Shown here: positions 22,938 through 52,781 of the stretch, one piece after another
Layout: each line of letters starts with the position of its first letter
How positions within the stretch are numbered: the stretch's first letter is position 1
Assembly: GCF_030915505.1 (NCBI RefSeq)
Contig: NZ_CP133265.1
Location: 3,438,001 to 3,502,000 of the forward strand
DNA: 64,000 nucleotides
Source: Neobacillus sp. OS1-2
GTDB taxonomy: Bacteria > Bacillota > Bacilli > Bacillales > Cytobacillaceae
Direction of reading: 5' to 3'
The notes under the pieces: model-generated
Databases searched by the model: none
What the model was told of the DNA's origin: nothing
The model's input: only the letters and a program-made list of their open reading frames with translations
Position numbers and translations under genes: made by a program

Positions 22938-22959
22938 GACCAGGGGGCTTGCGCTTTTC
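22938..22959. repeat. Degenerate copy F of the stop-codon-associated repeat
   Basis: It shares GACCAGGG-N-GCTTGCGCTTTTC with the right end of the full copy at 51749-51909, with one mismatch. It is oriented as if it followed a minus-strand gene, and a TAG lies 1 nt before it, but no gene is left there. Confidence 0.6.
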
Positions 22960-23025
22960 TCTAAAGAACGGATAACAAGAACGAAGCGTATGGTATAGTG
23001 AGAAAAATTTTTTGGAGGAACTTGG

Positions 23026-24237
23026 ATGGATGCATTAGAAATCCTATCGGATCTTGAAAACTGTTTTCCGTATTTTCAGCCGATTTTTAGTGCCGATGAG
23101 CAATGTATTATCGCCTATGAAGTACTAGGTCGTTATCAATCTGGGGATGGAGTCATTAGCTTAGGTCCCTTTTTTCTGGATGATCAAATTCCAGATGAAT
23201 ATAAATTTGAAGTCGATTTATTGTTGGTGAAAAAGGCACTTGATAAAGCGCTTCAACTTGATGAGGATGTCCTTATTTTTTTGAATCGAAATGCCGATTT
23301 ATTAATGTATGGGCATGGGGAACCATTTTTACAAGAACTTTTAGCATTTGAAAAAAAGGGACTGAGTTTAAAGCGAATTGTTCTTGAAATTTCTGACCGG
23401 AACTATCATGGTGATATCGATCAATTTGATCATCTCCTGCAATATTATCGGACATACGGTTTAAAAATAGCGATTGCAAGTATTAGCGGTGAAAGGCATT
23501 ATTTTGAACGAATTGGCCAGCTTGGGCCGGATATTATCAAAATCAACCTTCAAGCCTTGAAATCAACATCAACAGGGATAAACTTTAATGATGTTTTGTA
23601 TTCATTGTCTCTTTTGGCAAGAAAAATCGGGGCGACCCTCTTATTTGAAAATATTGAAATGAGTTATCAACTGCAGTTTGCCTGGAAAAATGGTGGACAT
23701 TATTATCAAGGGTTTTATTTACATCCACCTGGAGCCGATTTTATTAAGCATGATATATTAAAGTATCGCTTAAAAGAAAAATTTCATGACTTCATTTCAT
23801 ATGAAAAACGAAAATTAGAAGCTGTCTTTACAACAACTGAATATTTCCATGCAATGGTACAAGAAATAGTGATCAAAAACAGAAAGTCGGGCTACGATAT
23901 CCTTTTTCAAGCATTAATAAAGGAATTTGACGAAATTGCTTTTCGTATGTATGTCTGTGATGAAGACGGATTTCAAAAGTCAGCCAATATTTTTAAAGGA
24001 AAAACAGGCTGGAGTGTACAGTCTGAATACTTGGATAAAAATTGGAGCTGGCGACCTTATTTTTTGGAAAATATCATAAAGTTGCGCCTTGAACAAAAGG
24101 GAAGATTATCTGATCCGTATTGTGATATTGAAACGGGTGAGACGATTCGGACTTTTTCATTTCCAGTGAATGAAACTGATTATTTATTTATCGATATATC
24201 TTACCAATATTTATTTGAACACGACCAATTACTGTAA
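23026..24237 (+). CDS. ykuI: YkuI, degenerate EAL-domain c-di-GMP binding protein
   Basis: A 403-residue protein with an N-terminal EAL fold (about 1-240) and the YkuI C-terminal domain. The EAL motif is EVLGR (32-36) and DDFGTG is missing (IASISGERHY in its place). B. subtilis YkuI binds c-di-GMP but shows no phosphodiesterase activity, and the same is likely here. TTTGGAGGA precedes the ATG. It is the start of the ykuI-ykuJ-ykuL order. Confidence 0.92.
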   Translation: MDALEILSDLENCFPYFQPIFSADEQCIIAYEVLGRYQSGDGVISLGPFFLDDQIPDEYKFEVDLLLVKKALDKALQLDEDVLIFLNRNADLLMYGHGEPFLQELLAFEKKGLSLKRIVLEISDRNYHGDIDQFDHLLQYYRTYGLKIAIASISGERHYFERIGQLGPDIIKINLQALKSTSTGINFNDVLYSLSLLARKIGATLLFENIEMSYQLQFAWKNGGHYYQGFYLHPPGADFIKHDILKYRLKEKFHDFISYEKRKLEAVFTTTEYFHAMVQEIVIKNRKSGYDILFQALIKEFDEIAFRMYVCDEDGFQKSANIFKGKTGWSVQSEYLDKNWSWRPYFLENIIKLRLEQKGRLSDPYCDIETGETIRTFSFPVNETDYLFIDISYQYLFEHDQLL

Positions 24238-24460
24238 GAATGCGATACCAGGGGCCTACTTTTTCATCCTTTTTAAAAAAAATTACACATTTTTTTAATT
24301 TTACTTGGACAAATGATGTCTATTATTTTATGCTTTTACTATTGGCATTAAAAAGATCCACCTGTAATATTTTGATAAAAATCCATCAGGATAGAATCAT
24401 GCCAAATGAGAAACATAATTACAGACAGTTTGTTTTGTGTTTGAAAGGAGGAAAAGCCTT

Positions 24461-24697
24461 ATGTCACAGCTCCAAGGTATATTAACAAGGTTAAAAAACC
24501 TTCAGGAACAATCCACAAGTGGTGAGCCGGCACAACGCTATTTTGAGGTAAATGGTGAAAGAAAGTGTCAGGTAACATTTCATCCAAAAACGGAAACATT
24601 TGAATTAGAAGTATATAATGAAAAAGAAAAGCCGAAGAGATATCAATTTGACAATATTGATATGATTACCATCGAAATTTTTGATTTAATTCAGTAG
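24461..24697 (+). CDS. ykuJ: YkuJ family protein
   Basis: A 78-residue soluble protein. Its position after ykuI and its sequence (RYFEVNGERKCQVTF) fit YkuJ, a small Bacillus protein of unknown function. ATG 24461 has AAAGGAGG at 9 nt; the frame is open to 24437. The B. subtilis genes ykuK and abbA that follow ykuJ are not found here. The 220 nt between ykuI and ykuJ hold nothing convincing. Confidence 0.8.
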   Translation: MSQLQGILTRLKNLQEQSTSGEPAQRYFEVNGERKCQVTFHPKTETFELEVYNEKEKPKRYQFDNIDMITIEIFDLIQ

Positions 24698-24721
24698 GGA
24701 CCTTTAGGGGTTCCTTTTTTT
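24697..24721 (+). terminator. ykuJ terminator
   Basis: GGGACC / GGTTCC stem and seven T, starting at the last base of the stop codon. Confidence 0.7.
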
Positions 24722-24802
24722 ATGTATCTAAAATTAACCAGGCCTCAGAAAACTATGATAAAATAAGTCTGTAGAAAAACAAACATTGAGGAGTTTTCGG
24801 TG

Positions 24803-25249
24803 ATGATTAGTCTTCCCAGTGGAGAATTTTTAGAGTTAACAATAAAAGAATTAATGATACCATCAGAGCGGGTTGCCCATGTGCAAATCGGAAATAATCT
24901 TGAGCATGCCCTGCTAGTATTGACGAAAAGTGGATATACAGCTATTCCAGTATTAGATCCACATTACAAACTACACGGGTTAATTAGCACCCCAATCATT
25001 ATGGATTCAATTCTGGGGCTTGAACGAATTGAATTTGAACAACTTGAAAATAAACGGGTAGAAGAGGTAATGAAAAGGGTGATTCCACGGGTATCTGTAT
25101 CAGAGTCAATCATTGTCTGCTTAGATGAACTTGTACATCATCCGTTTCTTTGTGTTGAAAATGAAGATGGTTTTTTTGAAGGTATTTTACCAAGGAGTAC
25201 CGTTTTAAATCAATTAAATAAAATTGTAAAAAGGTTTAAAAAGCAATAA
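24803..25249 (+). CDS. darB: c-di-AMP-binding CBS protein DarB (CbpB, YkuL)
   Basis: A 148-residue protein made of two CBS motifs (about 10-65 and 75-140), matching B. subtilis YkuL/DarB. Without c-di-AMP, DarB binds and activates the (p)ppGpp synthetase Rel and pyruvate carboxylase; c-di-AMP releases it. The pycA gene is also in this window. GAGGAG is 9 nt before ATG 24803. An adjacent GTG at 24800 is possible. Confidence 0.88.
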   Translation: MISLPSGEFLELTIKELMIPSERVAHVQIGNNLEHALLVLTKSGYTAIPVLDPHYKLHGLISTPIIMDSILGLERIEFEQLENKRVEEVMKRVIPRVSVSESIIVCLDELVHHPFLCVENEDGFFEGILPRSTVLNQLNKIVKRFKKQ

Positions 25250-25255
25250 GATTCA

Positions 25256-25282
25256 AGCTCCCAATAGGGGGCTATATTTTTC
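25256..25282 (+). terminator. darB terminator
   Basis: AGCTCCC / GGGGGCT stem (one GU pair) followed by ATATTTTT. Confidence 0.65.
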
Positions 25283-25298
25283 GGTTTGAGGTGTTCAG

Positions 25299-26801
25299 AT
25301 GGATACGGATGGGAAGTCTCCTGTAAATTGCTCTCAAAAAAAACTAACGAAAAAATCACTTGTGCTTGTCTCGGTGATGCTTTCCATGTTTATGGGTGCG
25401 ATTGAAGCAACAATTGTTTCAACTGCGATGCCGGCAATTGTTGCCGATTTAGGTGGGTTCAAACTTTATAGCTGGGTTTTCTCTGCGTACTTATTAATGA
25501 ATGCTGTTACCGTGCTGATCTATGGAAAACTGTCAGATTTATTTGGTAGAAAGCCCATTCTGACAGTCGGAATCATACTATTTTTAATCGGTTCTATTCT
25601 CTGCGGTTTTTCCACATCTATGAAAACACTAATCATCTTTCGCTGTATTCAAGGTTTTGGTGCAGGAGCAGTTACACCAATAGCCACTACTATCGTCGGA
25701 GACATTTACACAGCGGAAGAAAGGGCAAAAATTCAAGGATATCTTTCAAGTGTATGGGGGATTTCTGCGATCACAGGTCCGGCAATCGGGGGCTTACTTG
25801 TCCAATATGTAAGTTGGCATTATGTCTTTTGGATCAACATTCCTTTGGGAATTCTATCATTAGTGGGACTTTGGCTGTTTTTACATGAAAATATAGAAAA
25901 GAAAAAACATAAAATAGACTATTGGGGTGCCACTCTATTAACCATCACAATTTCAACGCTTATGTTTGTTCTTGTTGAGGGCGGGGGCAAATGGGGATCA
26001 TGGCAAATGGTAAGTCTACTCATTTTGTCTGGAGCGGCTTTAATAGCGTTTATTTTTCAAGAAGGGCGAGCATCTGAACCAGTTATGCCTTTTGCGATTT
26101 GGAAGAAAAGATCGATATGTATCGCCAATATCACATCACTGACAACTGGTGTCATGTTAATTGGAATCTCTAGCTTTTTACCGACCTTCGTGCAGGGTGT
26201 GATGGAACAAACCCCAATTGTAGCCGGGTTTACGCTAACAACAATGTCAATCGGTTGGCCGATTGCATCGACACTGTCGGGGCGATTGCTGGTGACAATC
26301 GGTTACCGGAAAACTTCGATTATAGGCGGGGCTTTCTTAATTGTCGGGAGTATTGCTTTCGTAACGATGTCGGCTTCGTCCGGTCCGGTATGGGCGGCAG
26401 TTGGTTCCTTTTTCATTGGACTGGGTATGGGGCTGACATCCACTGCCTTTATAGTCTCGATTCAAAGCACTGTTAGCTGGGAGCAGCGGGGAATTGCCAC
26501 AGCGGCGAATATGTTTATGCGAAATCTTGGCAACACGATTGGTGCCGCCTTGTTAGGAGGGATCCTTAATTTCCGAATGAATGAATATTTTCATAAACAA
26601 GATCTTTTGTTAACAGTGGATGATGCTAATAAGCTCCTAAAAGCAAGTGATCGGAATAGTCTGAGTGAATCCGTTAAAAGTATTTTACAGGATGGACTGA
26701 CATTTTCTTTACACTCTGTTTATTATGTAGTTTTTACCTTTGCTATCGTTAGTTTGATATTAATATTTTTTATTCCTAAAAAAAACAATGGCTCTGTCTA
26801 A
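25299..26801 (+). CDS. DHA2-family MFS multidrug exporter (EmrB/QacA type)
   Basis: A 500-residue transporter with about 14 membrane helices. It has motif A GKLSDLFGRKP between helices 2 and 3 and motif C-like GPAIGGLLVQYVSWHYVFWINIP, the mark of proton-driven drug exporters of the DHA2 group. The substrate is unknown. It lies between darB and ccpC, where B. subtilis has no such gene, so it may be an insertion. ccpC follows 32 nt later. Confidence 0.85.
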   Translation: MDTDGKSPVNCSQKKLTKKSLVLVSVMLSMFMGAIEATIVSTAMPAIVADLGGFKLYSWVFSAYLLMNAVTVLIYGKLSDLFGRKPILTVGIILFLIGSILCGFSTSMKTLIIFRCIQGFGAGAVTPIATTIVGDIYTAEERAKIQGYLSSVWGISAITGPAIGGLLVQYVSWHYVFWINIPLGILSLVGLWLFLHENIEKKKHKIDYWGATLLTITISTLMFVLVEGGGKWGSWQMVSLLILSGAALIAFIFQEGRASEPVMPFAIWKKRSICIANITSLTTGVMLIGISSFLPTFVQGVMEQTPIVAGFTLTTMSIGWPIASTLSGRLLVTIGYRKTSIIGGAFLIVGSIAFVTMSASSGPVWAAVGSFFIGLGMGLTSTAFIVSIQSTVSWEQRGIATAANMFMRNLGNTIGAALLGGILNFRMNEYFHKQDLLLTVDDANKLLKASDRNSLSESVKSILQDGLTFSLHSVYYVVFTFAIVSLILIFFIPKKNNGSV

Positions 26802-26833
26802 ACAAGGGCAGGGTTTTTTAAGGAGAGATTTTC

Positions 26834-27724
26834 TTGTCCTCACTATCAGAATATCAATTATTATCTGTATTGGCTCAGGAAATGAATATGCGTAAGGCAT
26901 CGGAACGATTATTCGTTTCGCAGCCGGCTCTTTCTCAGCGGTTACAGACAATCGAAAAAGAGTGGGGAACAAAATTATTTATCCGCTCACAAAAAGGCTT
27001 GGCACTAACCCCTGCAGGTGAACATGTAATTGACTTTGTTGATGATGTTCTAAGTAAACAAGAAAAGGTACGCGAAACCATCCATTCTCTCCAATCAGGA
27101 GTTTCCGGAACACTGAAAATTGCTGTGGCTTCGATTGTAGGTCAAAATTGGCTCCCTCAGGTTTTAAAGAAGTTTATTGATAGGTATCCACAAGCAAAGA
27201 TTTCCCTCATAACGGGCTGGAGCAGTGAAATATTGAAATGCTTATACGACGATCAAGTCCATATTGGAATAATCCGTGGGGGGTCGCCGGACTGGAAAGG
27301 GATAAAAGTCCATCTTTTTAACGACCCACTTTATTTAGTTGATCGAGAAATTACGAAACCTGAACAGGTGTTAGCGACCGATCGTCCGTTTATTCAATTT
27401 AAAAGTGACTCTAATTATTATCAGGAAATTCAAGATTGGTGGATGCGCAACTTTAAAACCTCCCCAAAGAGGACGGTGGTCGTGGATCAAATTGAGACAT
27501 GCAAGCAGATGGCCTTTAATGGTATTGGCTATGCAATTTTGCCGTCAATTACACTATCGAAGGCGGAAAGGGACATTTTCAAAATTCCGCTAGTAGATGA
27601 GAATAACGAACCGTTAAAACGTGATACATGGCTTTTAGGGTATGAGTCAGCCTTTCAATTAAAACAAGTATCAGCCTTTGTTGAGTTGATTAAGGAACAC
27701 ATCGCTGAATCTTCTGAAGATTAG
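26834..27724 (+). CDS. ccpC: LysR-type regulator CcpC
   Basis: A 296-residue LysR regulator with an N-terminal winged helix (MNMRKASERLFVSQPALSQ) and a C-terminal effector domain. The stretch SLITGWSSEILK and the close overall similarity identify CcpC, the citrate-responsive repressor of citB (aconitase) and citZ in B. subtilis. It starts with TTG 26834 after AGGAGAG. Its position before dapH matches the ykuM-ykuQ order. Confidence 0.92.
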   Translation: MSSLSEYQLLSVLAQEMNMRKASERLFVSQPALSQRLQTIEKEWGTKLFIRSQKGLALTPAGEHVIDFVDDVLSKQEKVRETIHSLQSGVSGTLKIAVASIVGQNWLPQVLKKFIDRYPQAKISLITGWSSEILKCLYDDQVHIGIIRGGSPDWKGIKVHLFNDPLYLVDREITKPEQVLATDRPFIQFKSDSNYYQEIQDWWMRNFKTSPKRTVVVDQIETCKQMAFNGIGYAILPSITLSKAERDIFKIPLVDENNEPLKRDTWLLGYESAFQLKQVSAFVELIKEHIAESSED

Positions 27725-27797
27725 TGTTGTTTTTCTTGTTTTCATTACTTTTGTTTGTTAAAGTATTTTTTAGTACATATCTATAGGGGGTAACATT

Positions 27798-28508
27798 ATG
27801 AAAGTAATGGATGCAAATGAAATTATTTCTTTTATTCAAAATAGTAAAAAGTCTACACCTGTTAAAGTTTACTTGAAGGGTGAATTAGAAGGAATTAATT
27901 TTGGAAGCGGGGCAAAAGCCTTTATTAGTGGGAATACTGGTGTGGTCTTTGGCGAATGGTCTGAAATCAATGCAGCACTAGAAGCAAACAAGACAAAAAT
28001 TGAAGATTTTGTGGTCGAAAATGACCGCCGGAATTCAGCCATTCCATTGTTAGATACCAAACACATAAATGCGAGGATTGAGCCGGGTGTCACCATTCGT
28101 GACCAGGTAGAAATTGGTGATAATGCGGTAATTATGATGGGTGCAGTGATAAATATTGGAGCTGTAATTGGCGAAAAAACGATGATAGATATGGGGGTTG
28201 TCCTTGGCGGAAGAGCTACGGTCGGGAAAAATTGTCACATCGGTGCCGGAACGGTTTTAGCAGGGGTCATTGAGCCGCCATCTGCAAAACCAGTTATCAT
28301 TGAAGATGATGTCCTCATTGGTGCAAATGCCGTAGTCCTTGAGGGTGTCACAGTGGGAACAGGATCAGTTGTTGCAGCAGGAGCAGTTGTTACTCAAGAT
28401 GTCGCTCCGTTTACTGTGGTTGCCGGTATGCCAGCAAGAAAAATCAAGGATATTGACGAAAAAACGAAATCAAAGACGGAGATTATGCAAGAACTTCGAC
28501 AACTATAG
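27798..28508 (+). CDS. dapH: Tetrahydrodipicolinate N-acetyltransferase
   Basis: A 236-residue enzyme that acetylates tetrahydrodipicolinate in the acetyl branch of the lysine/diaminopimelate pathway. The N-terminal domain is followed by a left-handed beta-helix with repeated hexapeptides (about 90-215). AGGGGG precedes the ATG. The TAG stop is the first position of a dispersed repeat (its G starts GAAAAGCG). It is followed by dapL. Confidence 0.95.
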
Positions 28509-28552
28509 AAAAGCGAAAGCGCCCCTAGGCGCTGTAGCTAGACAATTCTTGA
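28508..28552. repeat. Copy A of the stop-codon-associated repeat (short form)
   Basis: GAAAAGCGAAAGCGCC begins at the G of the dapH stop TAG. An inner inverted repeat AGCGCC-CCTA-GGCGCT follows, then GTAGCTAGACAATTCTTG, the complement of the left end seen in other copies. Confidence 0.85.
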
Positions 28553-28632
28553 AGTAAGAATTGATTTTACTTTTATAAAATTTACAGGCGTGGATCCCAT
28601 CCACGCTTCTTTTTAAAAGGAGAGATACATAA

Positions 28633-29763
28633 ATGAACCCATTAATTACTATTCGTCGTGACCTGCATCAAATACCGGAACTGGGTTTTCAAGAGTTTAA
28701 AACGCAGGCATATTTATTAGCCTACATACAGTCATTACCACAAGAACGTATCATAATTAAAAAATGGAGAACTGGCTTGTTTGTAAAAATTCAGGGTCTA
28801 AAACCGGTCAAAACAATAGGTTATAGAACCGATATTGATGGTCTGCCAATTGAGGAAGAAACAGGATTACCATTTTCATCGTCACATCAAGCAAGAATGC
28901 ATGCCTGTGGACATGATTTTCATATGACCATCGCCCTAGGCGTACTGACTCACTTTGTTGCTAATCCAATTAATGATGACCTTTTATTTATCTTCCAACC
29001 CGCTGAGGAGGGACCTGGCGGGGCAGAACCCATGTTGAAATCAGAGGAAATGCGGGAGTGGATGCCGGATACCATTTTAGCCCTTCATATTGCACCAGAG
29101 TATCCTGTGGGGACAATTGCGCTTAAAGAAGGTTTATTATTTGCCAATACATCTGAATTATTTATCGATTTAAAGGGTAAGGGAGGTCATGCCGCTAGAC
29201 CCCACGAAACGAATGATATGGTTATTGCAGCCTGTTCACTCGTTCCGCAGCTGCAAACTATTATCTCCAGAAATATCGATCCGTTAGATAGTGCTGTTAT
29301 TACGATTGGGAAAATCACAGGCGGTACAGTTCAAAATATTATCGCTGAAAAGGCAAGGCTTGAAGGAACGATTCGCACTTTATCACCGGAATCGATGAAA
29401 AAGGTAAAACATCGTATTGAGGCGCTCGTAAAAGGAATTGAAATAGGCTTTGAATGTGAAGCAGTTATCGACTATGGATCAATGTACCATCAGGTATATA
29501 ACTCGGAAACCGTCACTAGAGAGTTTATCCATTGTATTGAACAGGATCCGGAAATAAATGTGATCGAATGTACCGCGGCGATGACGGGCGAGGATTTCGG
29601 CTATATGCTTAAGGAAATCCCTGGTCTCATGTTTTGGCTCGGTGTCGATTCAACTTTTGGACTACATCATGCAAAATTAAACCCAAATGAGGCGGCAATT
29701 GATGTAGCTATAAAAGTTATGACACGCTATATATCCTATAAAGGGAATCTGGCAATTGAATGA
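28633..29763 (+). CDS. dapL: N-acetyldiaminopimelate deacetylase
   Basis: A 376-residue M20-family amidohydrolase that removes the acetyl group from N-acetyl-LL-diaminopimelate. Metal-binding stretches [20 protein letters not shown] and the C-terminal HHAKLNP are visible. The genes dapH-dapL together give the acetyl pathway to mesoDAP for cell wall and spores. AAAGGAGAG precedes the ATG. No clear terminator follows. Confidence 0.94.
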
Positions 29764-29782
29764 AATTAACAGGCCATTTTAT

Positions 29783-29811
29783 TTGGTTCTGGCAGGAAAT
29801 CATGTTACTAT
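29783..29811 (+). promoter_or_regulatory. Candidate promoter of ykuU
   Basis: TTGGTT and TACTAT with 17-nt spacing, about 100 nt before the gene. Confidence 0.4.
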
Positions 29812-29913
29812 GAAAAAGGAATAATGTTACATATTGTCGTTTATTCTCGTTGGAAATAGGCAAAACTGTCTAAGGGGATTAGTGATCATTAAATAATATT
29901 TGGAGGGATTCTA

Positions 29914-30462
29914 ATGCCAGAACGTATGGTAGGCAAACAAGCTCCACGCTTTGAAATGGATGCGGTCATGCCGAACAAAGAATTTAAAAAAGTAAGCCTG
30001 GAAGAAAACATGAAAAATGATAAATGGACTGTATTGTTCTTCTACCCAATGGACTTTACATTTGTATGTCCAACTGAAATTACAGCGATGTCTGATCGTT
30101 ACGAAGAGTTTGATGATCTTGATGCAGTTGTTATCGGTGCTTCAACTGACACTATCCATACACACCTTGCATGGATTAAAACAGACCGTAAAGAAAATGG
30201 TCTTGGCGAGTTAAACTATCCTTTAGCTGCAGATACAAATCATGTTGTTGCACGTGATTATGGTGTATTAATTGAAGAGGAAGGTATTGCTCTTCGTGGT
30301 TTGTTCATCATTGATCCAGAAGGCGAATTAAAATATTCTGTTGTAAACCACAACAATATTGGCCGTGATGTGGATGAAACATTACGCGTGCTTCAAGCAT
30401 TACAAACTGGCGGTCTCTGCCCTGCAAACTGGAAGCCTGGACAAGCCACTTTAAACGCTTAA
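29914..30462 (+). CDS. ykuU: 2-Cys peroxiredoxin YkuU
   Basis: A 182-residue typical 2-Cys peroxiredoxin that reduces peroxides. The peroxidatic Cys52 lies in DFTFVCPTE and the resolving Cys169 in GGLCPANWKPG. TTTGGAGGGA precedes the ATG. The codons are more biased than in neighbours (many CGT and GGT), as in highly expressed genes. It is followed by the thioredoxin-like ykuV, as in B. subtilis. Confidence 0.93.
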   Translation: MPERMVGKQAPRFEMDAVMPNKEFKKVSLEENMKNDKWTVLFFYPMDFTFVCPTEITAMSDRYEEFDDLDAVVIGASTDTIHTHLAWIKTDRKENGLGELNYPLAADTNHVVARDYGVLIEEEGIALRGLFIIDPEGELKYSVVNHNNIGRDVDETLRVLQALQTGGLCPANWKPGQATLNA

Positions 30463-30476
30463 GTTAACTAAACATG

Positions 30477-30512: not shown

Positions 30513-30529
30513 AAAATAGGGGGTAAAAC

Positions 30530-30985: not shown

Positions 30986-30991
30986 GGGTAT

Positions 30992-42379: not shown

Positions 42380-42814
42380 TTACTTTCTTGGATAGTAATA
42401 CATGATTCTTTCGTTAAAAAGATGCAATTCACCTTGCAGCTTTTTAGCAAGGAATTTGGCAAATTCGTTTGCCTTTCCTTTGTCTCCATGTGTAGATTGT
42501 TCTGGGAGTGTAATTTGAATGTTCACCTGCTCGCTTTCCTGTCCATCCTCACTACGAACCGATTCTTTGTCAATACCAATTAAGATAGCATAATAGCGCT
42601 CATGATTTGATTTTAAATAAAACCACTTTCCTTTGCCTTCTTCTGTTTCTTTAATTTCATACGGAAAGGCGGAATCACCGTACTGCCAATTCAATTGGTC
42701 ACCCGTTTTAGTAGTAATATTTTTATAGTAATGAAATAAGTCCATTACCTCTTCAATTGTTACTGTTTGTTTTGCAGATGAGGGCACTAGCTTAATAAAT
42801 GCGTTTTCAGCCAT
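42380..42814 (-). CDS. DUF1885-like family protein
   Basis: A 144-residue soluble protein, charged at the C-terminus. NAFIKLVPSSAKQTVT and the general pattern recall the DUF1885 family known from a Geobacillus structure; this is from memory. Function is unknown. There are three ATGs in a row (42820, 42817, 42814). I choose 42814 because it gives the best spacing from AGGGGGGGA. Confidence 0.65.
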   Translation of the reverse strand: MAENAFIKLVPSSAKQTVTIEEVMDLFHYYKNITTKTGDQLNWQYGDSAFPYEIKETEEGKGKWFYLKSNHERYYAILIGIDKESVRSEDGQESEQVNIQITLPEQSTHGDKGKANEFAKFLAKKLQGELHLFNERIMYYYPRK

Positions 42815-43275: not shown

Positions 43276-43289
43276 AGTATTTTGAAAAT

Positions 43290-43376: not shown

Positions 43377-43389
43377 TGAATTAAGGATA

Positions 43390-43403
43390 TTTAAACGCTT
43401 TCA
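43390..43403 (+). promoter_or_regulatory. Candidate CcpA cre site of SR1
   Basis: TTTAAACGCTTTCA matches TGWAANCGNTNWCA except at position 2. It lies just downstream of the transcript start, a position that would block transcription. SR1 in B. subtilis is repressed under sugar, mainly by CcpN and slightly by CcpA. Confidence 0.6.
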
Positions 43404-43443
43404 AAATTCATGATCATTCAATTAAGAAAAGGGGATTGAACAG

Positions 43444-43566
43444 ATGGGTACTCTTGTATGCCAAACATGTAACTCTACTATTGATCATTTTGAAGATGAA
43501 AAAGTAACAGTACTTTATTCGAAGTGTAACTGTTGCGAGGACCATCATACTGCTGAAGAAAAATAA
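43444..43566 (+). CDS. sr1P: GapA-binding peptide SR1P
   Basis: A 40-residue peptide with cysteines at 6, 9, 28, 30 and 31 (MGTLVCQTCNSTIDHFEDEK). B. subtilis SR1P is 39 aa with the same zinc-ribbon-like character; it binds GapA and promotes its interaction with RNase J1, which is also in this window (rnjA). AGGGG is 9 nt before the ATG. It is too short for usual gene calls. Confidence 0.85.
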   Translation: MGTLVCQTCNSTIDHFEDEKVTVLYSKCNCCEDHHTAEEK

Positions 43567-43596
43567 TTTCATTAACCATTCTTATAAAAAATGAAA

Positions 43597-45098: not shown

Positions 45099-45311
45099 TG
45101 ATTACTACACCTCTTTATGAAAAAATACTCATCTTTACTATGGTCAATAAAACATAAAGCAAAAGGAATTATAGCACTATTCCAAGGGGTTGCATAGATT
45201 TCTTAAATATTTCTTTGTTTTTATTTGTTTCAAGTTAGTTTCCCATTAATACAGGAAATTTAACCTTTTAAGGCGAAATAACAAATTAACAAATTATTTG
45301 GGGGGATCCAT

Positions 45312-46271
45312 TTGAATTGGCAAACAAAAGTGACCGAGATTTTAAATATTCGTTATCCGATTATCCAGGGAGGGCTTGCCTATTTGGCATATTCTGAATT
45401 GGCAGCGGCTGTTTCAAATGCTGGAGGGTTGGGTCAAATTACCGCGATGTCATTAAGCAGCCCCGATCAACTTCAAAAGGAAATTCGAAAAGTAAAAGAG
45501 TTAACGAATAATCCCTTCGGGGTTAATTTTGCTATTGGACAGCATGGCAGACCATTTGCTGATTTCCTTCAGGTAGCCATTGATGAAAACGTTCCTGTTG
45601 TCTCGATGACAGGCGGAAACCCTGCCCCCATTTTTGAACAGTTAAAAGGAACATCCATAAAAACACTTGTCCTAGTTGCAGCGAGACGGCAGGCGATGAA
45701 GGCAGAACAGTTGGGAGCAGATGCAGTTATGGTCGTGGGGCAAGAAGGAGGCGGCCACCTTGGCAGAGATGATATTGGTACCATGGTGTTAATTCCACAA
45801 GTGGTCGATGCTGTTTCTATTCCAGTAATCGCCTCTGGCGGGATTGGTGACGGAAGGGGCTTGATGGCAGGCTTAAGTTTAGGGGCTGAAGGAATTGAAA
45901 TGGGAACGAGGTTTATTGCTACGAAAGAGTGTGTCCATGCACACGAAATATACAAACAAACATTAGTGGAAGGAACAGAGTCAGACACGGTGGTGATCAA
46001 GCGAACATTGGGAGCGCCGGCAAGGGCCATTGCCAACACCTGGACGGAGAAAATTATTGAAATTGAGCAATCAAAGGGTGAATATGATCAGTTAAAGGAC
46101 TTCATCAGTGGAACCGCTAATAAACGATACATATATGATGGAGAAACAAATGAAGGCTTTGCGTGGGCCGGCCAGGTGATGGGACTGATTAAGGATGTAC
46201 CTGCCGTTACAGATCTTTTTTCCCGAATGATTAGTGATGCGGAACAAATTCGTGCAAAATGGGGAAAATAA
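45312..46271 (+). CDS. Nitronate monooxygenase-family FMN protein
   Basis: A 319-residue TIM-barrel flavoprotein of the nitronate monooxygenase / FabK-like group. Motifs are PIIQGGLAYLA, GGLGQITA, VVGQEGGGHLGR and IASGGIGDGRGL (FMN phosphate binding). It could be a nitronate monooxygenase or an FabK-type enoyl-ACP reductase; the sequence alone does not settle this. TTG 45312 follows GGGGGGA. It is upstream of yktA on the same strand. Confidence 0.85.
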   Translation: MNWQTKVTEILNIRYPIIQGGLAYLAYSELAAAVSNAGGLGQITAMSLSSPDQLQKEIRKVKELTNNPFGVNFAIGQHGRPFADFLQVAIDENVPVVSMTGGNPAPIFEQLKGTSIKTLVLVAARRQAMKAEQLGADAVMVVGQEGGGHLGRDDIGTMVLIPQVVDAVSIPVIASGGIGDGRGLMAGLSLGAEGIEMGTRFIATKECVHAHEIYKQTLVEGTESDTVVIKRTLGAPARAIANTWTEKIIEIEQSKGEYDQLKDFISGTANKRYIYDGETNEGFAWAGQVMGLIKDVPAVTDLFSRMISDAEQIRAKWGK

Positions 46272-46312
46272 AGGTATGATTCACTATAGTGAAAAAGTTA
46301 GCAGGTGAAAAA

Positions 46313-46585
46313 ATGGAATATCAATATCCGATCGATTACAATTGGTCTACAGATGAAATTGTTGATGTCATTAAATTTTTTGAGGCAGTTGAACAGGCAT
46401 ATGAAAAGGGAATTGAACGAGACAAGATTATGATGACTTATAGAAGGTTTAAAGAAATTGTCCCGAGCATCGCGCAAGAAAAAACCATTTGCGGCGAATT
46501 CGAAGAAATAAGTGGATATTCTTCCTATCGAACAATTAAAAAAGCAAAAGAATCCGCATCAGGTGACAGAATTAACATGAAATAA
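46313..46585 (+). CDS. yktA: UPF0223 protein YktA
   Basis: A 90-residue soluble protein with [21 protein letters not shown], the UPF0223 start. Function unknown. ATG 46313 follows CAGGTGA; the frame is open to 46289. Neighbouring yktB and suhB (yktC) keep the B. subtilis order. Confidence 0.88.
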
Positions 46586-46587
46586 CT

Positions 46588-46622
46588 GGAAAAGCTCCCG
46601 AAAAATATTTCGGGAGTTTTTC
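46588..46622. terminator. yktA terminator
   Basis: CTCCCGAAA / TTTCGGGAG stem with U-rich flanks. Confidence 0.8.
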
Positions 46623-46623
46623 C

Positions 46624-46655
46624 AACTGCCCAGCTCCAGGGCGCTTCTGCTTTTC
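46624..46655. repeat. Copy B of the stop-codon-associated repeat (short form)
   Basis: On the minus strand GAAAAGCAGAAGCGCC starts immediately after the yktB TAA (46658-46656), followed by CTGGAGCTGGGCAGTT. Confidence 0.8.
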
Positions 46656-47288
46656 TTATTTCATGTTTTGAGCAATTTTATAGAGGGGAGCCACATTGTT
46701 AAATACATCCTCAATTTGCTGCAATAACCCTTCGGAACCTAACTGGATGGTTTGATCCCTCTCAATGGTAAAACCGCATAATAACTCTGCCTTTTTTACA
46801 TTTTGCAGTCTAGCAAAGTTTGAAAGCAAATCAGCTTTTGACAAATTTCCGTGTTTAATTGTATCAGGCTTCATATGATCTAACGACCAGACGTAGTCTT
46901 TTGGTATTTCCTTAAATATTTTATTGGCCTTTTTTGTAAATCTTGCTCCCATGTCCTCTTTTTGAGGTGCTTCATAAATGACGGCAAACCAAATGAATAA
47001 ATGGGTATGCCACAAGCCTATTTGGAAATGGGGCAGCATTTTATAGCCGCGAGGATTATTGGCAAAGGCCACCCATGTATCTTTTGGCGGATTGATTGTC
47101 CGTCTTGCATGCTTTGCCACATGGACAAACATTTCATCTCCTGTTAAATGAGACAAAGATGGCGCAAAGTGCGCCCCTAGAAGCTCTAATTTAGGACGGA
47201 TTGTCCTTTTAAGTGCGTCCATTCTTGCTTCTAAACCATCTAGTAAGAACACATCAAAATCTTCATTTGTAAATCCATTGAATTCCAT
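46656..47288 (-). CDS. yktB: UPF0637 protein YktB
   Basis: A 210-residue protein of the DUF1054 (UPF0637) family with FTNEDFDVF at the start and GLWHTHLFIWFAVIYE near the middle. Function unknown. I choose ATG 47288, since GGAGGGA lies upstream on the minus strand; the frame is open to 47378. A dispersed repeat begins right at its stop. Confidence 0.88.
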   Translation of the reverse strand: MEFNGFTNEDFDVFLLDGLEARMDALKRTIRPKLELLGAHFAPSLSHLTGDEMFVHVAKHARRTINPPKDTWVAFANNPRGYKMLPHFQIGLWHTHLFIWFAVIYEAPQKEDMGARFTKKANKIFKEIPKDYVWSLDHMKPDTIKHGNLSKADLLSNFARLQNVKKAELLCGFTIERDQTIQLGSEGLLQQIEDVFNNVAPLYKIAQNMK

Positions 47289-47467
47289 CTGTAATCCCTC
47301 CAACACGCAATTCGCCATTAATTGTAGCACATTGCCGAAATTACAAGAAGTTTGGTGCTTATATAGGTTAAAGCACATATTTGTTGCAACCCTTCAAGAA
47401 TCCTCATATGATACAGTAAAAAAATAATCAGAAAAGTCAATCAAAACGGAGGAAGGGGAGGAGAAAG

Positions 47468-47662
47468 GTGAAACAATTAATGAATACTTCATTAAAAAAA
47501 GCGGGCGAAAAAGAAAGAACTGCGGTATTGAGATTAGAAATGGATTATGAATTGGCGGTATTATTTGAAGCAATTGAGGAAAAGAATGAGAGAAAAATGA
47601 AAGAATGTAAACAAAAGTTAGAAAAAATCCGCCAGGAATTATTACGATTTAAAGCTCTTTGA
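47468..47662 (+). CDS. Small coiled-coil-like hypothetical protein, 64 aa
   Basis: A 64-residue, almost fully helical and charged protein (AVLFEAIEEKNERKMKECKQKLEKIRQELL) likely to form a coiled coil. I do not recognise it. GTG 47468 is preceded by AGGGGAGGAG. A terminator follows. It stands alone between yktB and suhB. Confidence 0.6.
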   Translation: MKQLMNTSLKKAGEKERTAVLRLEMDYELAVLFEAIEEKNERKMKECKQKLEKIRQELLRFKAL

Positions 47663-47737
47663 TTGATTGGGGATATTTTAATCAAAGGAGTAATAAATTA
47701 GAATGAACCCAAAAAGAATAAATTATTTGCTTATCTA

Positions 47738-47776
47738 AAACGGACTCCAAAAATGATTGCGAGGAGTTCGTTTATT
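47738..47776 (+). terminator. Terminator before suhB
   Basis: AAACGGACTCC / GGAGTTCGTTT, 11-bp stem with one GU. Confidence 0.7.
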
Positions 47777-47918
47777 ATTGTGCAGATATGTGATATTTTG
47801 AACGTATAGGGAGCTATAAGTTGATGTGTTTCATCAATTTGATTAAGCTAAAGGTACATCAAATAATAGAGCATGCTTGATACTACATACAATAGAAATC
47901 GGGAAATGGAGGGGTATT

Positions 47919-48716
47919 ATGAATTGGGAAGAAATTGATACTTATGCAAAAGAATGGGTAAAGGAAGCAGGAAACAGGATACGTTTATCCTTTGAGAAGA
48001 CATTAAGTATTGAAACAAAGTCAAACGCCAACGATCTTGTGACAAATATGGATAAGGAAATAGAACAATTTTTTATAAATAAAATTAGGGGGATGTATCC
48101 GGAGCATAGAATTATGGGGGAAGAAGGATTTGGTGATGAACTGAACAGCCTTGATGGAATTGTCTGGTTAATTGATCCCATTGATGGAACGATGAATTTT
48201 ATCCATCAACAAAGGAACTTTGCGATATCCATAGGGATTTATGAAAATGGAATTGGCCAAATTGGCCTCGTTTATGATGTGGTCCATGATGAATTGTATC
48301 ATGCAATTCGGGGCAAGGGTGCTTTTTTAAATGGAAAACAACTACCAGTACTTAAGGAATCAAAAGTGAAGGAATCCATCATCGCCCTTAATGCCACATG
48401 GGTAATGGAGAATCATCGTATCGATCATAATTTGTTGATTCCATTAGTTAGAAATGCCAGAGGGACCAGATCCTACGGGACAGCGGCACTTGAATTGGTG
48501 TTTGTTGCAACAGGGAGGGTGGATGCCTATCTTTCGATGCGATTATCGCCATGGGACATTGCTGCAGGGGCAGTTATTGTAGAAGAATTAGGTGGAGTAG
48601 TAACTAATTTAAAGGGGGAAAAACATAATTTTCTTTCCCAAGATTCACTTTTCACGGCAAATCCCGGTTTACATCAAGAAATCTTAAAGGATTATTTAAG
48701 GGTAGGTCAATCGTAA
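47919..48716 (+). CDS. suhB: Inositol monophosphatase-family protein (SuhB, YktC)
   Basis: A 265-residue Li-sensitive, Mg-dependent phosphatase. Metal sites GEEGFG and DPIDGTMNF, plus SPWDIAAG near residue 210, are all present. It may use inositol-1-phosphate or related sugars. ATG 47919 follows GGAGGGG; the frame is open to 47877. A terminator starts at the stop codon. Confidence 0.92.
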   Translation: MNWEEIDTYAKEWVKEAGNRIRLSFEKTLSIETKSNANDLVTNMDKEIEQFFINKIRGMYPEHRIMGEEGFGDELNSLDGIVWLIDPIDGTMNFIHQQRNFAISIGIYENGIGQIGLVYDVVHDELYHAIRGKGAFLNGKQLPVLKESKVKESIIALNATWVMENHRIDHNLLIPLVRNARGTRSYGTAALELVFVATGRVDAYLSMRLSPWDIAAGAVIVEELGGVVTNLKGEKHNFLSQDSLFTANPGLHQEILKDYLRVGQS

Positions 48717-48744
48717 AAAAAAGAAGCCACTTGGCTTCTTTTTT
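48716..48744 (+). terminator. suhB terminator
   Basis: AAAAAGAAGCCA / TGGCTTCTTTTT stem with T-run. Confidence 0.8.
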
Positions 48745-48770
48745 AAGAGATAAGAGAGTATAACTTTTAA

Positions 48771-48817
48771 CTTTGAGAATTGTCCAGCTCCAGCACCCCA
48801 GGGCGCTTCCACTTTTC
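48771..48817. repeat. Copy C of the stop-codon-associated repeat (short form)
   Basis: On the minus strand GAAAAGTGGAAGCGCC begins directly after the ylaF TGA (48820-48818). The left part CTTTGAGAATTGTCCAGCTC matches copy D. Confidence 0.85.
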
Positions 48818-49003
48818 TCATAATTCTCCACTTTCACGCATTTTTCTTTTTGTTTTAAATCCTAGTCCCATGATGACAATTACTGCTAAAATACAGCCAA
48901 TTGCTCCCAGTAAACTTTTTTCACTAATAGCAATACCGATTCCCATGATACTAGCTGCAGCAAGTATTGCATACATAAGTAAAGGCCATTTTACACTTTT
49001 CAT
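48818..49003 (-). CDS. ylaF: YlaF-like small membrane protein (DUF5325)
   Basis: A 61-residue protein with two membrane helices (about 7-23 and 28-47) and a basic C-terminus. Its place divergent from typA (ylaG) matches ylaF. I choose ATG 49003 with AAGGGAT upstream; the frame is open to 49021. Function unknown. Confidence 0.78.
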   Translation of the reverse strand: MKSVKWPLLMYAILAAASIMGIGIAISEKSLLGAIGCILAVIVIMGLGFKTKRKMRESGEL

Positions 49004-49099
49004 TTTTTCAGATCCCTTCAATAGTAAACGGTAACAATCATATTTTTTAGATATATTTTTTATTCTACATAAAATGCTTTAGGGTTTCCACTTTATTTA

Positions 49100-49108
49100 T
49101 GGTATAAT
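49100..49108 (+). promoter_or_regulatory. Extended -10 promoter of typA
   Basis: TGG-TATAAT, 68 nt before the start, without a good -35. Confidence 0.5.
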
Positions 49109-49176
49109 GTTTTAGTTGTAAATGAAAAACTATAAATAGATTTTATTTTTATGAATATAGGCAGGAGTGGAAATTT

Positions 49177-51015
49177 TTGAAAATAAGAAATGATATTCGT
49201 AATATTGCGATCATTGCACACGTTGACCATGGGAAAACAACGTTGGTGGATCAATTATTAAAACAGTCTGGAACGTTTCGTTCAAATGAGCATGTGGAAG
49301 AACGGGCAATGGACTCTAATGATCTAGAAAGAGAGCGCGGAATTACCATCCTTGCTAAAAATACAGCGGTACAATATAAAGATACCCGTATCAATATTTT
49401 AGATACTCCGGGACACGCTGATTTTGGCGGCGAGGTTGAGCGGATTATGAAAATGGTTGACGGAGTATTACTTGTCGTGGATGCTTATGAAGGATGTATG
49501 CCGCAAACTCGTTTTGTTCTTAAAAAGGCATTGGAGCAGAAAATCACACCGATTGTCGTTGTAAATAAAATTGACCGTGACTTTGCTCGTCCAGCAGAAG
49601 TAATTGATGAAGTAATCGACTTATTTATTGAACTTGATGCGTCGGAGGATCAGCTTGAATTCCCTGTTATTTATGCATCAGCCATAAATGGTACAGCAAG
49701 CGTCAATCCTGAACAACAGGATGAAAACATGCAGTCATTGTATGATGCCATCGTTGAATATATTCCGGCACCAGTTGATAATCGTGAAGAGCCATTACAA
49801 TTCCAAGTAGCTCTTCTAGATTATAACGATTATGTCGGCAGAATCGGCATTGGGCGTGTTTTCCGTGGCACGATGCAAGTTGGTCAACAAGTTGCTTTAA
49901 TGAAATTAGATGGTAGTGTAAAACAATTCCGTGTCACCAAAATCTTCGGTTTCTTTGGCCTAAAACGTCAGGAAGTTCAAGAAGCAAAAGCAGGTGACCT
50001 AATAGCCGTCTCTGGTATGGAAGATATTAATGTTGGTGAAACCGTTTGTCCAATTGAGCACCAAGAAGCATTACCAATTTTGCGAATCGACGAACCGACA
50101 CTGCAAATGACTTTTGCCGTAAACAATAGTCCATTTGCTGGGCGAGAAGGAAAATATTTAACTTCACGAAAAATTGAAGAAAGACTTCTTGCACAATTGC
50201 ACACAGATGTAAGTTTACGGGTTGAAAACACAGACTCACCCGATGCTTGGATTGTTTCCGGCCGTGGTGAACTTCATTTATCTATTCTGATTGAAAATAT
50301 GCGCCGTGAAGGCTATGAACTTCAAGTTTCAAAACCTGAGGTCATTGTTAAAGTTATTGATGGCGTTCGTTGTGAGCCTGTAGAAAGAGTGCAAATTGAC
50401 GTTCCTGAAGAACATACTGGTTCTGTTATGGAATCAATTGGTGCACGCAAAGGTGAAATGCTTGATATGATTAATAACGGTTCTGGTCAAGTAAGGTTAA
50501 TCTTTAATGTCCCTGCACGTGGTTTAATTGGGTATACTACTGAATTCTTAACCATGACACGTGGATATGGAATTATTAATCATACTTTTGACAGCTACCA
50601 GCCAATGCTTGCAGGTCAAGTTGGCGGAAGACATCAAGGTGTCTTAGTCTCAATGGAGTCTGGAAAAGCCTCGACATATGGTATTATGCAGGTAGAGGAT
50701 CGTGGTACGATATTCGTTGAACCAGGCACGGAGATATATGAGGGAATGATTGTTGGTGAAAACACTCGTGAAAATGACATTACAGTCAATATCACAAAAG
50801 TGAAGCAGGCAACAAATGTTCGTTCAGCCAATAAAGACCAAACATCAGTTATTAAAAAACCACGTATTATGACATTAGAAGAATCGCTAGAATATTTAAA
50901 TGATGACGAATATTGTGAGGTAACACCAGAATCTATTCGCCTACGTAAGAAAATTTTAGATAAAAATGAACGTGAAAAATCAGCTAAAAAGAAAAAATAT
51001 GCTGAAATGAGTTAA
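49177..51015 (+). CDS. typA: Ribosome-associated GTPase TypA/BipA
   Basis: A 612-residue translational GTPase with G1 [11 protein letters not shown]3 [11 protein letters not shown] and G4 NKIDR, followed by the EF-G-like domains and the BipA C-terminal part ([18 protein letters not shown] stretch). It binds ribosomes and helps growth in stress. TTG 49177 follows GGAGTGG. The gene is followed by ylaH after 17 nt. Confidence 0.96.
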
Positions 51016-51032
51016 TTAATGAGGTGCACGCT

Positions 51033-51374
51033 GTGGAAGATTTAAAATCATTCTCCCCTAGTTTAAGATTTTTTATTGAGCTTGTTGCAGGTAATTCACC
51101 TGTATCACAAAGTGATGTAGAAACTGGTGTGTTACTCCAATATTTATTTATTGTCATTTTAACCATTATTGTCTACAGATTAGGCTTTGCAAAAAAATTG
51201 CCTCTGTTAAAAAACATTGTCATCTATGTCAGCCTTTGCGTTGGATGCCTGATCATGTTGTTCTTTTCTTACGCATTGCCAATTGCTGAAGGGCTCGGTG
51301 TAGCGGCGGTATTATTAATCATTTATAAAATCCGCCGTTACCAATCGGAAAAGAATCATGCGGAAGCAAAATAA
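51033..51374 (+). CDS. ylaH: YlaH-like membrane protein
   Basis: A 113-residue protein with three membrane helices (about 35-53, 62-83 and 85-101) and the conserved LGFAKKLPLLKNIVIY stretch of YlaH. Function unknown. GTG 51033 follows GAGGTG at 6 nt; the frame is open to GTG 51024, which falls inside that site. Confidence 0.85.
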   Translation: MEDLKSFSPSLRFFIELVAGNSPVSQSDVETGVLLQYLFIVILTIIVYRLGFAKKLPLLKNIVIYVSLCVGCLIMLFFSYALPIAEGLGVAAVLLIIYKIRRYQSEKNHAEAK

Positions 51375-51389
51375 CGGGGGTTTAAGTAA

Positions 51390-51683
51390 ATGAATTCCTT
51401 ACAGGATGCACTATATAATTGGCTAACGATAAAGATTGTCTGCGATGCTCGTCCTGATGATTCTGCAGCAAAGGAAACTCGAGATTTCTTTGAAGAAATG
51501 TTAACAAATGAGCATCATGTATCATCTATAGAAACAACAAAAGATGATGTGATGTATTATATTTCCTATCAACAAGGTGAAGAAACTAAAAAACAACGCT
51601 ACCCGCGTGAGTTAATTGAAATCATGCTGGACCAAATTAACAAAGAACCTGAAAAGTATCAGGAATACCCAATAGTGGAATAA
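51390..51683 (+). CDS. Conserved-type hypothetical protein, 97 aa
   Basis: A 97-residue acidic soluble protein (ARPDDSAAKETRDFFEEML, YISYQQGEE). It lies 15 nt after ylaH on the same strand, behind GGGGG, and is probably co-transcribed with typA-ylaH. I do not recognise the family. A strong terminator follows. Confidence 0.75.
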   Translation: MNSLQDALYNWLTIKIVCDARPDDSAAKETRDFFEEMLTNEHHVSSIETTKDDVMYYISYQQGEETKKQRYPRELIEIMLDQINKEPEKYQEYPIVE

Positions 51684-51726
51684 AAAAAGTGCTGGCCTGT
51701 TTTCGTAATGGGCCAGCACTTTTTGT
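51684..51726 (+). terminator. Terminator of the typA-ylaH operon
   Basis: AGTGCTGGCC / GGCCAGCACT stem with A- and T-runs. Confidence 0.88.
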
Positions 51727-51748
51727 AAATAAGAACCAATAGCTATTG

Positions 51749-51909
51749 ACTTTGAGAAATGTCTAGCTCCAGCGCCCTAGCGGCTAGTGTCCTTCGCTCT
51801 CCGCCCTACGATAAGTCAACATCGATTCGCCTCCGGCTCATCGTGTTTCCTTTATCTCAGTTGGAGAGCTCCAGGCCATACGCCGCTGACCAGGGCGCTT
51901 GCGCTTTTC
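51749..51909. repeat. Copy D: full-length stop-codon-associated repeat (about 160 bp)
   Basis: The ends AGCGCCCTAGCGGC (51771-51784) and GCCGCT-GACC-AGGGCGCT (51882-51899) pair over about 100 nt, with inner hairpins such as TGGAG-AG-CTCCA. On the minus strand GAAAAGCGCAAGCGCC starts 3 nt after the ylaI TAA. Its base composition (GC-rich) differs from the flanks. It has no open frame with a ribosome site. Confidence 0.88.
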
Positions 51910-51912
51910 TTT

Positions 51913-52113
51913 TTACCATTCATCTTTTTCCAATTTGGTCCGATATAAGCGGAAATTACCAGTATCAATTCGGGCATTGGTTTTTTCGGTTATTCTAGTG
52001 CTGCAGTTATCGCACATATATGTATGGATTGGACGATTACGAAGACGTTTCGCTATTAATGATTCATCCTCGATCGCTTCAATTTTATCGCAAATGACAC
52101 ACTTTACTCTCAT
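51913..52113 (-). CDS. ylaI: YlaI, zinc-ribbon protein (DUF2197)
   Basis: A 66-residue protein with CVIC near the start and CDNC about 30 residues later, forming a four-cysteine zinc ribbon. It matches YlaI. Function unknown. GAGGTG precedes the ATG on the minus strand. Its stop is 3 nt from the full-length repeat. Confidence 0.85.
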   Translation of the reverse strand: MRVKCVICDKIEAIEDESLIAKRLRNRPIHTYMCDNCSTRITEKTNARIDTGNFRLYRTKLEKDEW

Positions 52114-52282
52114 GAAGCCACCTCATCAATTCTTTCCTTAAATCTGAATGTTTGTATTATAGTATAACATGTGTGAACACAACATGTAATCAATTGGGTT
52201 AGAGTTGATGAAAAAAAGGGATAGTAGTAATATGAGAATATCTGTTTTCAAACAGGTAAGGAAAAATAAAGGGGTTGTAAAA

Positions 52283-52738
52283 ATGGCAAATCAAGTAGAG
52301 CCAAAGCTAATCAAGCCATTATATGATGAAATGCAGAAAGAACGTTTTGTTACATTGGCAACAGTTGATTATGAGACAGGCGGACCAAATGTTAGTGCAA
52401 TTTCTTGGGTGATGGCAATAGATGAAAGCACCATCTATTTTGCGGTTGATAATCGTTCACGGATTTTAGAAAACATTCATAAAAATAACAAGGTAGTTAT
52501 TAATTTAATTGCAAATGAATCTACATATTCGATTCAAGGGGATGCACAGCTAAAAGAAGAAAGATTACAGGATGTTCCATTAAAGCTCGCATTAGTAAAA
52601 GTGACTATACAAGAAGTAAGGGATGTCATGTTTTACGGATCCAAAATTGTCACTGAAGTACAGTATGATAAAACCTATGATAAAAATGCTGCGGAAAAAT
52701 TGGACCGACAAGTAATGGAAGCAATGAAAAAAGCTTAG
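52283..52738 (+). CDS. ylaL: Pyridoxamine 5'-phosphate oxidase-family protein YlaL
   Basis: A 151-residue flavin-binding split-barrel protein (FVTLATVDYETGGPNVSAISWV, then FAVDNRSRILENI). It matches YlaL, whose substrate is unknown. I choose ATG 52283, which follows AAAGGGG at 8 nt. The frame is open to 52205 and ATG 52231 is an alternative. Confidence 0.82.
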   Translation: MANQVEPKLIKPLYDEMQKERFVTLATVDYETGGPNVSAISWVMAIDESTIYFAVDNRSRILENIHKNNKVVINLIANESTYSIQGDAQLKEERLQDVPLKLALVKVTIQEVRDVMFYGSKIVTEVQYDKTYDKNAAEKLDRQVMEAMKKA

Positions 52739-52757
52739 TGAAAACTAAGCTTTTTTT
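52728..52757 (+). terminator. ylaL terminator
   Basis: AAAAAGCTTAG / CTAAGCTTTTT; the stop codon forms the end of the left arm. Confidence 0.8.
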
Positions 52758-52764
52758 GATAAAA

Positions 52765-52781
52765 TGGCGCTTTCGCTTTTC
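52765..52781. repeat. Copy E of the stop-codon-associated repeat (end only)
   Basis: On the minus strand GAAAAGCGAAAGCGCC begins directly after the ylaJ TAA (52784-52782). Only the 17-nt right end is left, next to the ylaL terminator. Confidence 0.75.

Follow-up and report, generated by a model that had tools for sequence, protein, structure and literature searches.

The window analyzed here, a 64,000-nucleotide stretch of the Neobacillus sp. OS1-2 chromosome (NZ_CP133265.1, positions 3,438,001 to 3,502,000), raises the question of why one short repeat should begin directly at the stop codons of five different genes. A preliminary description of the window had noted such copies, each starting at or within 3 nt of a stop codon, behind dapH, ylaJ and three genes that we take to be yktB, ylaF, and ylaI. 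The observation is real and general. We think it somewhat more probable than otherwise that the repeats are small, non-autonomous mobile elements, resembling repetitive extragenic palindromic (REP) sequences and miniature inverted-repeat transposable elements (MITEs), and that a landing rule directing their 3′ ends to terminators yields the association with stop codons.

Reading of the sequence confirmed all five placements as claimed. The repeat shares the G of the dapH stop codon (CTA TAG; first repeat base at 28508, reading frame verified), follows the TAA of yktB (46655), the TGA of ylaF (48817), and the TAA of ylaJ (52781) at 0 nt, and begins 3 nt behind the TAA of ylaI (51909). A degenerate sixth copy (22944–22959, minus strand) was likewise found as described: a TAG precedes it at a distance of 1 nt, and no gene ends at this point. 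When up to three mismatches are allowed, the window holds eight matches against 1.03 expected by chance, and none of 100 shuffles reached eight; the matches at 42664 and 60683 (three mismatches each) were not counted as copies.

Throughout the 4.73-Mb single-contig genome, the left-end motif GAAAAGCGNAAGCGCC occurs 55 times exactly (26 on the plus and 29 on the minus strand; reversed control 0) and 146 times with up to two mismatches (eight control matches), and the right end, GGCGCTGGAGCTAGACA, gives 86 matches at up to two mismatches with none for the control. Of the 146 copies, 122 were read and 24 were left unread. Adjacency to stop codons was determined for 110 of the 122, five tandem-internal copies and six copies in rRNA operons being set aside deliberately and the copy at 876822 lost inadvertently, its flank matching the letters of the rRNA filter; gene calls came from a simple in-house codon-usage caller that misses some left genes, such as ylaI. 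A codirectional gene lies on the 5′ side of 61 of these copies, and 47 of the 61 start between −4 and +5 nt from its stop; judged by length, 167 element-free regions predict 4.2% for this interval (p = 2e-52). With an opposite gene on the 5′ side (45 of the 110), no copy is adjacent. The near-stop distances are 3 nt (15 copies), 0 nt (13), 4 nt (seven), −1 nt (seven), and 2 nt (two), with single copies at 1, −4, 5, and −11 nt. Checked genome-wide, the excess at 0 to 3 nt from stop codons is present, and the proposal that placement at stops is nonrandom is borne out.

The preliminary description also mentioned similar sequences behind stop codons in other Bacillaceae, and loci from these agree. 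We sampled at least 120 stretches from other named Bacillaceae, analyzing 80 first and adding 40 as a previously unexamined held-out set; they contain 102 and 61 copies, from which we dropped 21 and 8 that lay too close to an edge, together with 1 and 3 duplicates. In the first set, 15 of 31 copies with a codirectional gene are adjacent to its stop compared with 0 of 44 with an opposite gene; the held-out set gave 17 of 26 and 0 of 23, and the two together 32 of 57 and 0 of 67. Within the genus, 59 of 60 genomes contain the exact 5′ motif (range, 0 to 126 copies per genome), and in the order it is found in 90 of 199 genomes, representing 47 of 97 genera; the reversed control was zero everywhere. 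High-copy and zero-copy genomes can occur side by side in one genus, as two such pairs illustrate. When the ends of yktB, ylaF, ylaI, and ylaJ were read by eye in 20 further genomes of the genus, at least 12 of the 78 had a sense copy no more than 4 nt from the stop, some of these copies differing in their interior from the copies in the window; at many other such ends, again by eye, the stop runs directly into a terminator.

That the repeat is mobile is indicated by comparison with a sister strain of the same species at loci with and without it, which revealed presence/absence differences at many copies. Along about 160 kb aligned at about 99% identity, 7 of 7 breaks fall at repeat copies, where the strains differ in whether a copy is present, in the number of units in an array, or by a deletion inside the copy; further cases occur elsewhere in the genome, polymorphic copies standing at 795157 and 395171, for example. 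Within the window, the interior of the ylaF copy is 111 bp longer in the sister strain, and the ylaI copy there is without 118 bp of the core. Three empty/filled pairs fit, by eye, 2-bp duplications (AG, CA, and AA); other pairs give no clean duplication, and deletion may account for some of the empty sites. A different repeat, built of GGGTTATTGTGCCCGTGAGGAGTAAAAAATCCC-like units at chromosome positions 338260–338509, differs in length between the two strains.

One reading of the distances, which peak at exactly −1, 0, 3, and 4 nt, is that the mover recognizes the stop codon or translation termination itself. We regard this as very unlikely. Where the left gene is codirectional, TAA, TTA, or ATA directly precedes 35 of 55 copies; where it is opposite, one of these trinucleotides still precedes 18 of 39, against an intergenic trinucleotide background of 9%; in the named genomes the corresponding counts are 18 of 31 and 21 of 44. 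Because these trinucleotides precede copies that have no stop to follow, this end belongs to the element or to its landing site, with some excess at stops. In one empty/filled strain pair, the TAG that closes a long, 434-aa open frame is followed by GGAGG when empty and by TAAGAAAAGCG when filled; here the TAA arrived with the element. The TA(A) abutting the repeat is, at least partly, the element's own end. On this view, a gene at a distance of 3 or 4 nt would have kept its own stop, with the element end after it, and at 0 or −1 nt the element's TA(A) would coincide with the stop.

Copies behind 23S rRNA point the same way. Six copies begin 3 nt behind the modeled 23S rRNA end, between 23S and 5S, at 6 of the 12 such ends in the genome, and since 23S rRNA has no stop codon, they argue against translation ends as the target. 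These six are nearly identical, which suggests homogenization between operons. In addition, polymorphic copies at strain-alignment breaks 5 and 6 lie at places without a gene end. The earlier suggestion that the repeat targets translation ends is thus not supported, given the TA(A) before copies without a codirectional gene, the 23S rRNA copies, and the antisense copies behind terminators described below. Creation of stops by insertion was also rejected: the C-termini encoded by yktB, ylaF, ylaI, and ylaJ share their last residue in most relatives, and no truncated gene was found in a search confined to the four gene ends and alignment breaks 5 and 6, neither of which is in a gene.

If the stop codon is not the target, the orientation of the copies offers a better guide. 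The preliminary description held that the repeat always has the same orientation relative to the gene and named equal numbers of both orientations as the sign that would speak against it. Constancy holds for copies with their 5′ end at a stop but not genome-wide, where, with both neighbors on one strand, 37 copies are sense and 34 antisense. Up to 150 nt behind a stop, 54 sense copies have no stem between the stop and the repeat (48 of them are within 5 nt) and three have one, whereas a stem intervenes for 23 antisense copies and none was found for 13 (Fisher p 9e-10 versus sense, in a table that counts convergent gene pairs twice). From this coupling of orientation and stem it follows that the 3′ end of the repeat points at the stem.

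The flanks were also surveyed with a crude stem finder, which misses some stems, for the 97 of the 122 copies whose 3′ end was found. On the right of the core, 37 of 97 copies have a stem with an A- or T-tract, compared with 100 of 600 controls; on the left, only 4 of 97 have a stem with a T-tract, compared with 71 of 600. In a test restricted to the 47 copies with a tail, an A-run of at least four stands at the tail end in 31, compared with 22% of 8494 control 18-mers; neighboring windows gave 8 to 12 of 47. Where a terminator stem was found (83 of 167 element-free regions), it begins a median of 11 nt after the stop, and for this reason a rule that brings the 3′ end to the stem puts sense copies near the stop. 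We infer that one rule serves sense and antisense copies alike: the 3′ end of the repeat faces a terminator stem or an A-run.

Under this rule, the element would insert so that its 3′ end abuts an A-run, which in many cases would be the 5′ shoulder of a bidirectional terminator stem; read on the other strand, the insertion point would then be just past the T-tract. Next to a codirectional gene, the insertion would land in the short gap between stop and stem, with the left end falling on the stop, and the element's own TA(A) could then double or replace the stop codon. Where the gene is on the other strand, the same rule would place the element beyond the terminator of that gene. Copies landing in genes, promoters, or stems would presumably be lost. 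The best account of the placement is that the stop codon is the visible consequence of a landing rule about terminator stems and A-runs.

Loss of harmful insertions might, however, explain the whole pattern. If insertion were random and copies survived only in tiny harmless gaps (between stop and stem, stop and ribosome-binding site, or 23S and 5S), the association with stops would be survivorship. We consider this possible but a good deal less probable. The gaps are indeed short, copies also stand 3 nt behind 23S rRNA and in operon gaps, and no known mover was found. Yet the space behind a terminator should tolerate either orientation, whereas it holds just 3 sense copies against 23 antisense copies, and the A-runs at the tail end also argue against pure survivorship.

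Several observations nevertheless weigh against the landing rule. Convergent gene pairs enter the orientation counts twice, as noted, and 13 antisense copies are without a stem where the rule needs one. An A-tract stem or A-run was not seen in the right flank of 66 of the 97 copies, nor at the tail end of 16 of the 47, and tail-less type-2 copies have no A-run right at the core end. The peaks at −1, 0, 3, and 4 nt are tighter than an 11-nt gap alone predicts, and a TAA running into at least four A residues occurs in only 16 of 152 element-free genes. Several operon-internal copies sit at a stop with no stem behind. Finally, the rule would describe how elements land, and it is deduced from copies that still stand.

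The structure of the element bears on what it might be and do. Elements measure about 30 to 190 bp, with a constant left end, TA(A)GAAAAGCGNAAGCGCC, and a right core end of GGCGCTGNAGCTRGACA. The core is a rod whose ends read GC-GNA-AGCGCC and GGCGCT-GNA-GC, with a 3×3 internal loop. Distinct copies were sorted into type 1 (n = 53, about 150 nt), type 2 (n = 45, about 122 nt), and short copies (n = 26, up to 48 nt). In many copies the core is followed by some 37 nt of AT-rich tail, which belongs to the element, because tandem arrays repeat with a 187-bp step. A head-to-tail repeat array with a 153-bp step (chromosome 1086024–1086345) is shorter in the sister strain. No larger copy was present among the 122 read, although other genomes were not specifically searched for a parent insertion sequence, and a search of one type-1 copy (type 2 was not searched) against plasmids and phages gave no match.

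In an alignment of 21 type-2 cores chosen for diversity, 24 of 35 pairs changed on both sides, showing that the rod-like fold is maintained through compensatory changes. Folded as RNA, the sense strand is more stable than its complement (consensus −49 versus −33 and −51 versus −37 kcal/mol). An asymmetry between G-U and A-C pairs was abandoned as proof of an RNA stage because the other strand gives a similar excess, and only the energy difference was retained. An Rfam scan of the window and seven loci gave no match to the repeat; the sole match in the window at gathering scores is the SR1 small RNA (RF02376) at 43380–43569.

The covarying fold, the better folding of the sense strand as RNA, and the position of sense copies within the transcript raise the prospect that the repeat is retained behind stops for a role in RNA, such as blocking an exonuclease or stalling ribosomes, by analogy with what is reported for stop-proximal REPs of Escherichia coli. 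There is precedent for the placement: one study puts 446 of the 4,072 REPs predicted in E. coli no more than 15 nt from a stop and cites 260 of 496 from an earlier study (PMC12306157). We nonetheless judge retention for such a role unlikely: roughly one copy in two is antisense and located behind a terminator, strains differ in the copies they carry, and orthologs are mostly without the repeat, as the count from the 20 relatives (at least 12 of 78 ends) illustrates.

If the repeats move, an enzyme must be sought, and known candidates were weighed in turn. One is the REP-associated tyrosine transposase (RAYT), a Y1 tyrosine transposase that would move the repeat as a REP. Of 60 genomes of the genus, 57 encode Y1 proteins, and hairpin repeats near stops fit REPs. 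However, of 20 Y1 loci read, 17 carry neither end motif at up to three mismatches and three carry one isolated match, and Y1 number does not correlate with repeat copy number (rho −0.06, 60 genomes). In the three genomes that gave no Y1 match, exact copies number 52, 41, and 20; these could be relics. A left target motif of the kind used by IS200-like elements was also rejected, since the left flanks of empty sites (GGTAG, CATCA, GTGAA, and GATTT) share nothing. RAYT as mover is unsupported, and we hold it to be extremely improbable. Other short palindromes (GGTGCCTGACACC; GGGGACAG...CTGTCCCC) flank several RAYT-type genes of the genus (by eye) and are probably the REPs of those genes.

A second candidate is the reverse transcriptase (RT) of group IIC introns, acting in trans. 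Such introns target DNA stem-loops (PMC10190682), which would suit a repeat that may land beside terminators, and one terminator bears the repeat in the sister strain (near 224229) and a group II intron of about 2.2 kb in this strain (3547998–3550179; RT match at 3548707). This pair is a case of a shared target and not evidence of a shared enzyme. Group II RT number does not correlate with repeat copy number (rho 0.08 over 60 genomes), and 11 of the 12 genomes without a group II RT match carry 5 to 74 exact copies. The repeat gave no Rfam match to group II intron RNA domains, and its ends differ from the 5′ GTGYG end of such introns. This enzyme is thus unsupported as the mover, and we rate it as hardly probable. 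Group II RT matches number 23 in this genome and one in the sister strain.

A bacterial counterpart of short interspersed nuclear elements (SINEs) can also be imagined. In this scheme, an enzyme that has so far been connected with no repeat would copy the sense RNA, in its conserved fold, into chromosomal DNA, starting at the T-tract that adjoins a terminator stem on the opposite strand. Such copying would always leave the 3′ end at a stem and would account for landing on stops and behind 23S rRNA. We find this idea rather doubtful.

Positions of the repeat copies and the associated genes are listed below. Behind the dapH copy, a tail-like stretch is followed by a terminator-like stem (about 28587–28607).

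Repeat copies and associated genes in the window (positions count from the first nucleotide of the window).
Feature	Position	Strand	Remarks
Degenerate repeat copy	22944..22959	-	One mismatch; no codirectional gene end alongside
dapH	27798..28508	+	Open reading frame, C-terminus; TIGR03532 and PF08503; G of TAG is first repeat base
Short repeat copy behind dapH	28508..28544	+	37-nt core
Short repeat copy behind yktB	46627..46655	-	29-nt core, 0 nt behind stop; terminator stem next
yktB	46656..47378	-	Open reading frame and domain match (DUF1054)
Tail of ylaF repeat copy, A-run, and terminator stem	48723..48780	-	Stem at about 48723–48738
Repeat copy behind ylaF	48781..48817	-	37-nt core, 0 nt behind stop
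ylaF	48818..49021	-	Open reading frame and domain match (DUF5325)
Full type-1 repeat core behind ylaI	51760..51909	-	150 nt, 3 nt behind stop
ylaI	51913..52113	-	Open reading frame and domain match (DUF2197)
Truncated repeat copy behind ylaJ	52766..52781	-	5′ end only, 0 nt behind stop; terminator stem next
ylaJ	52782..53402	-	YhcN/YlaJ family lipoprotein; TIGR02898 and PF09580

Across many genera of a single bacterial order, this repeat family alters gene 3′ ends, and in this genome it lies in half of the rRNA operons (6 of 12). The coupling between orientation and terminators provides a handle for finding the mover, and the loci at which just one of the two strains of this species carries the repeat constitute a natural experiment on how a strong hairpin directly behind a stop codon affects translation termination and mRNA decay. 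No description of the family was found in open papers, which were searched in full text by its motifs and otherwise by title; the motifs led to a single paper, unrelated to judge by its title, and within those papers this REP/MITE-like family is apparently undescribed.

Among known systems, the bcr1 element of the Bacillus cereus group is reportedly a short, non-coding MITE that is mobile by strain comparison and sometimes transcribed with its neighbors. The repeat is similarly short, non-coding, dispersed, and present or absent between close strains, as expected of a MITE. Unlike bcr1-type MITEs, its ends are not clean terminal inverted repeats, and such duplications as could be read fit 2 bp of varying sequence.

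The repeat is also an imperfect hairpin, dispersed and extragenic, as a REP would be. The REPs and REP doublets forming hairpins (REPINs) of E. coli, Pseudomonas, and others are dispersed extragenic hairpins, many of them near stops (for E. coli, PMC12306157), and the ends of GTAG-REPs often supply a TAG stop to neighboring genes (PMC3733652). Unlike these, our repeat has no GTAG/CGTC tag, does not stand beside the RAYT genes read, is uncorrelated with Y1 number, and has its 3′ end coupled to terminator stems.

Group IIC introns share with the repeat the habit of landing beside terminator-like DNA stem-loops (PMC10190682), but the repeat is much shorter, carries no intron sequence, RT, or Rfam match, and is present independently of RT genes. 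Lastly, low-GC Firmicutes have AT-rich stem-loops right behind stops that have been interpreted as terminators (PMC1590033). The repeat likewise places a hairpin right behind stops; unlike the stem-loops as presented there, it precedes a separate terminator in many copies.

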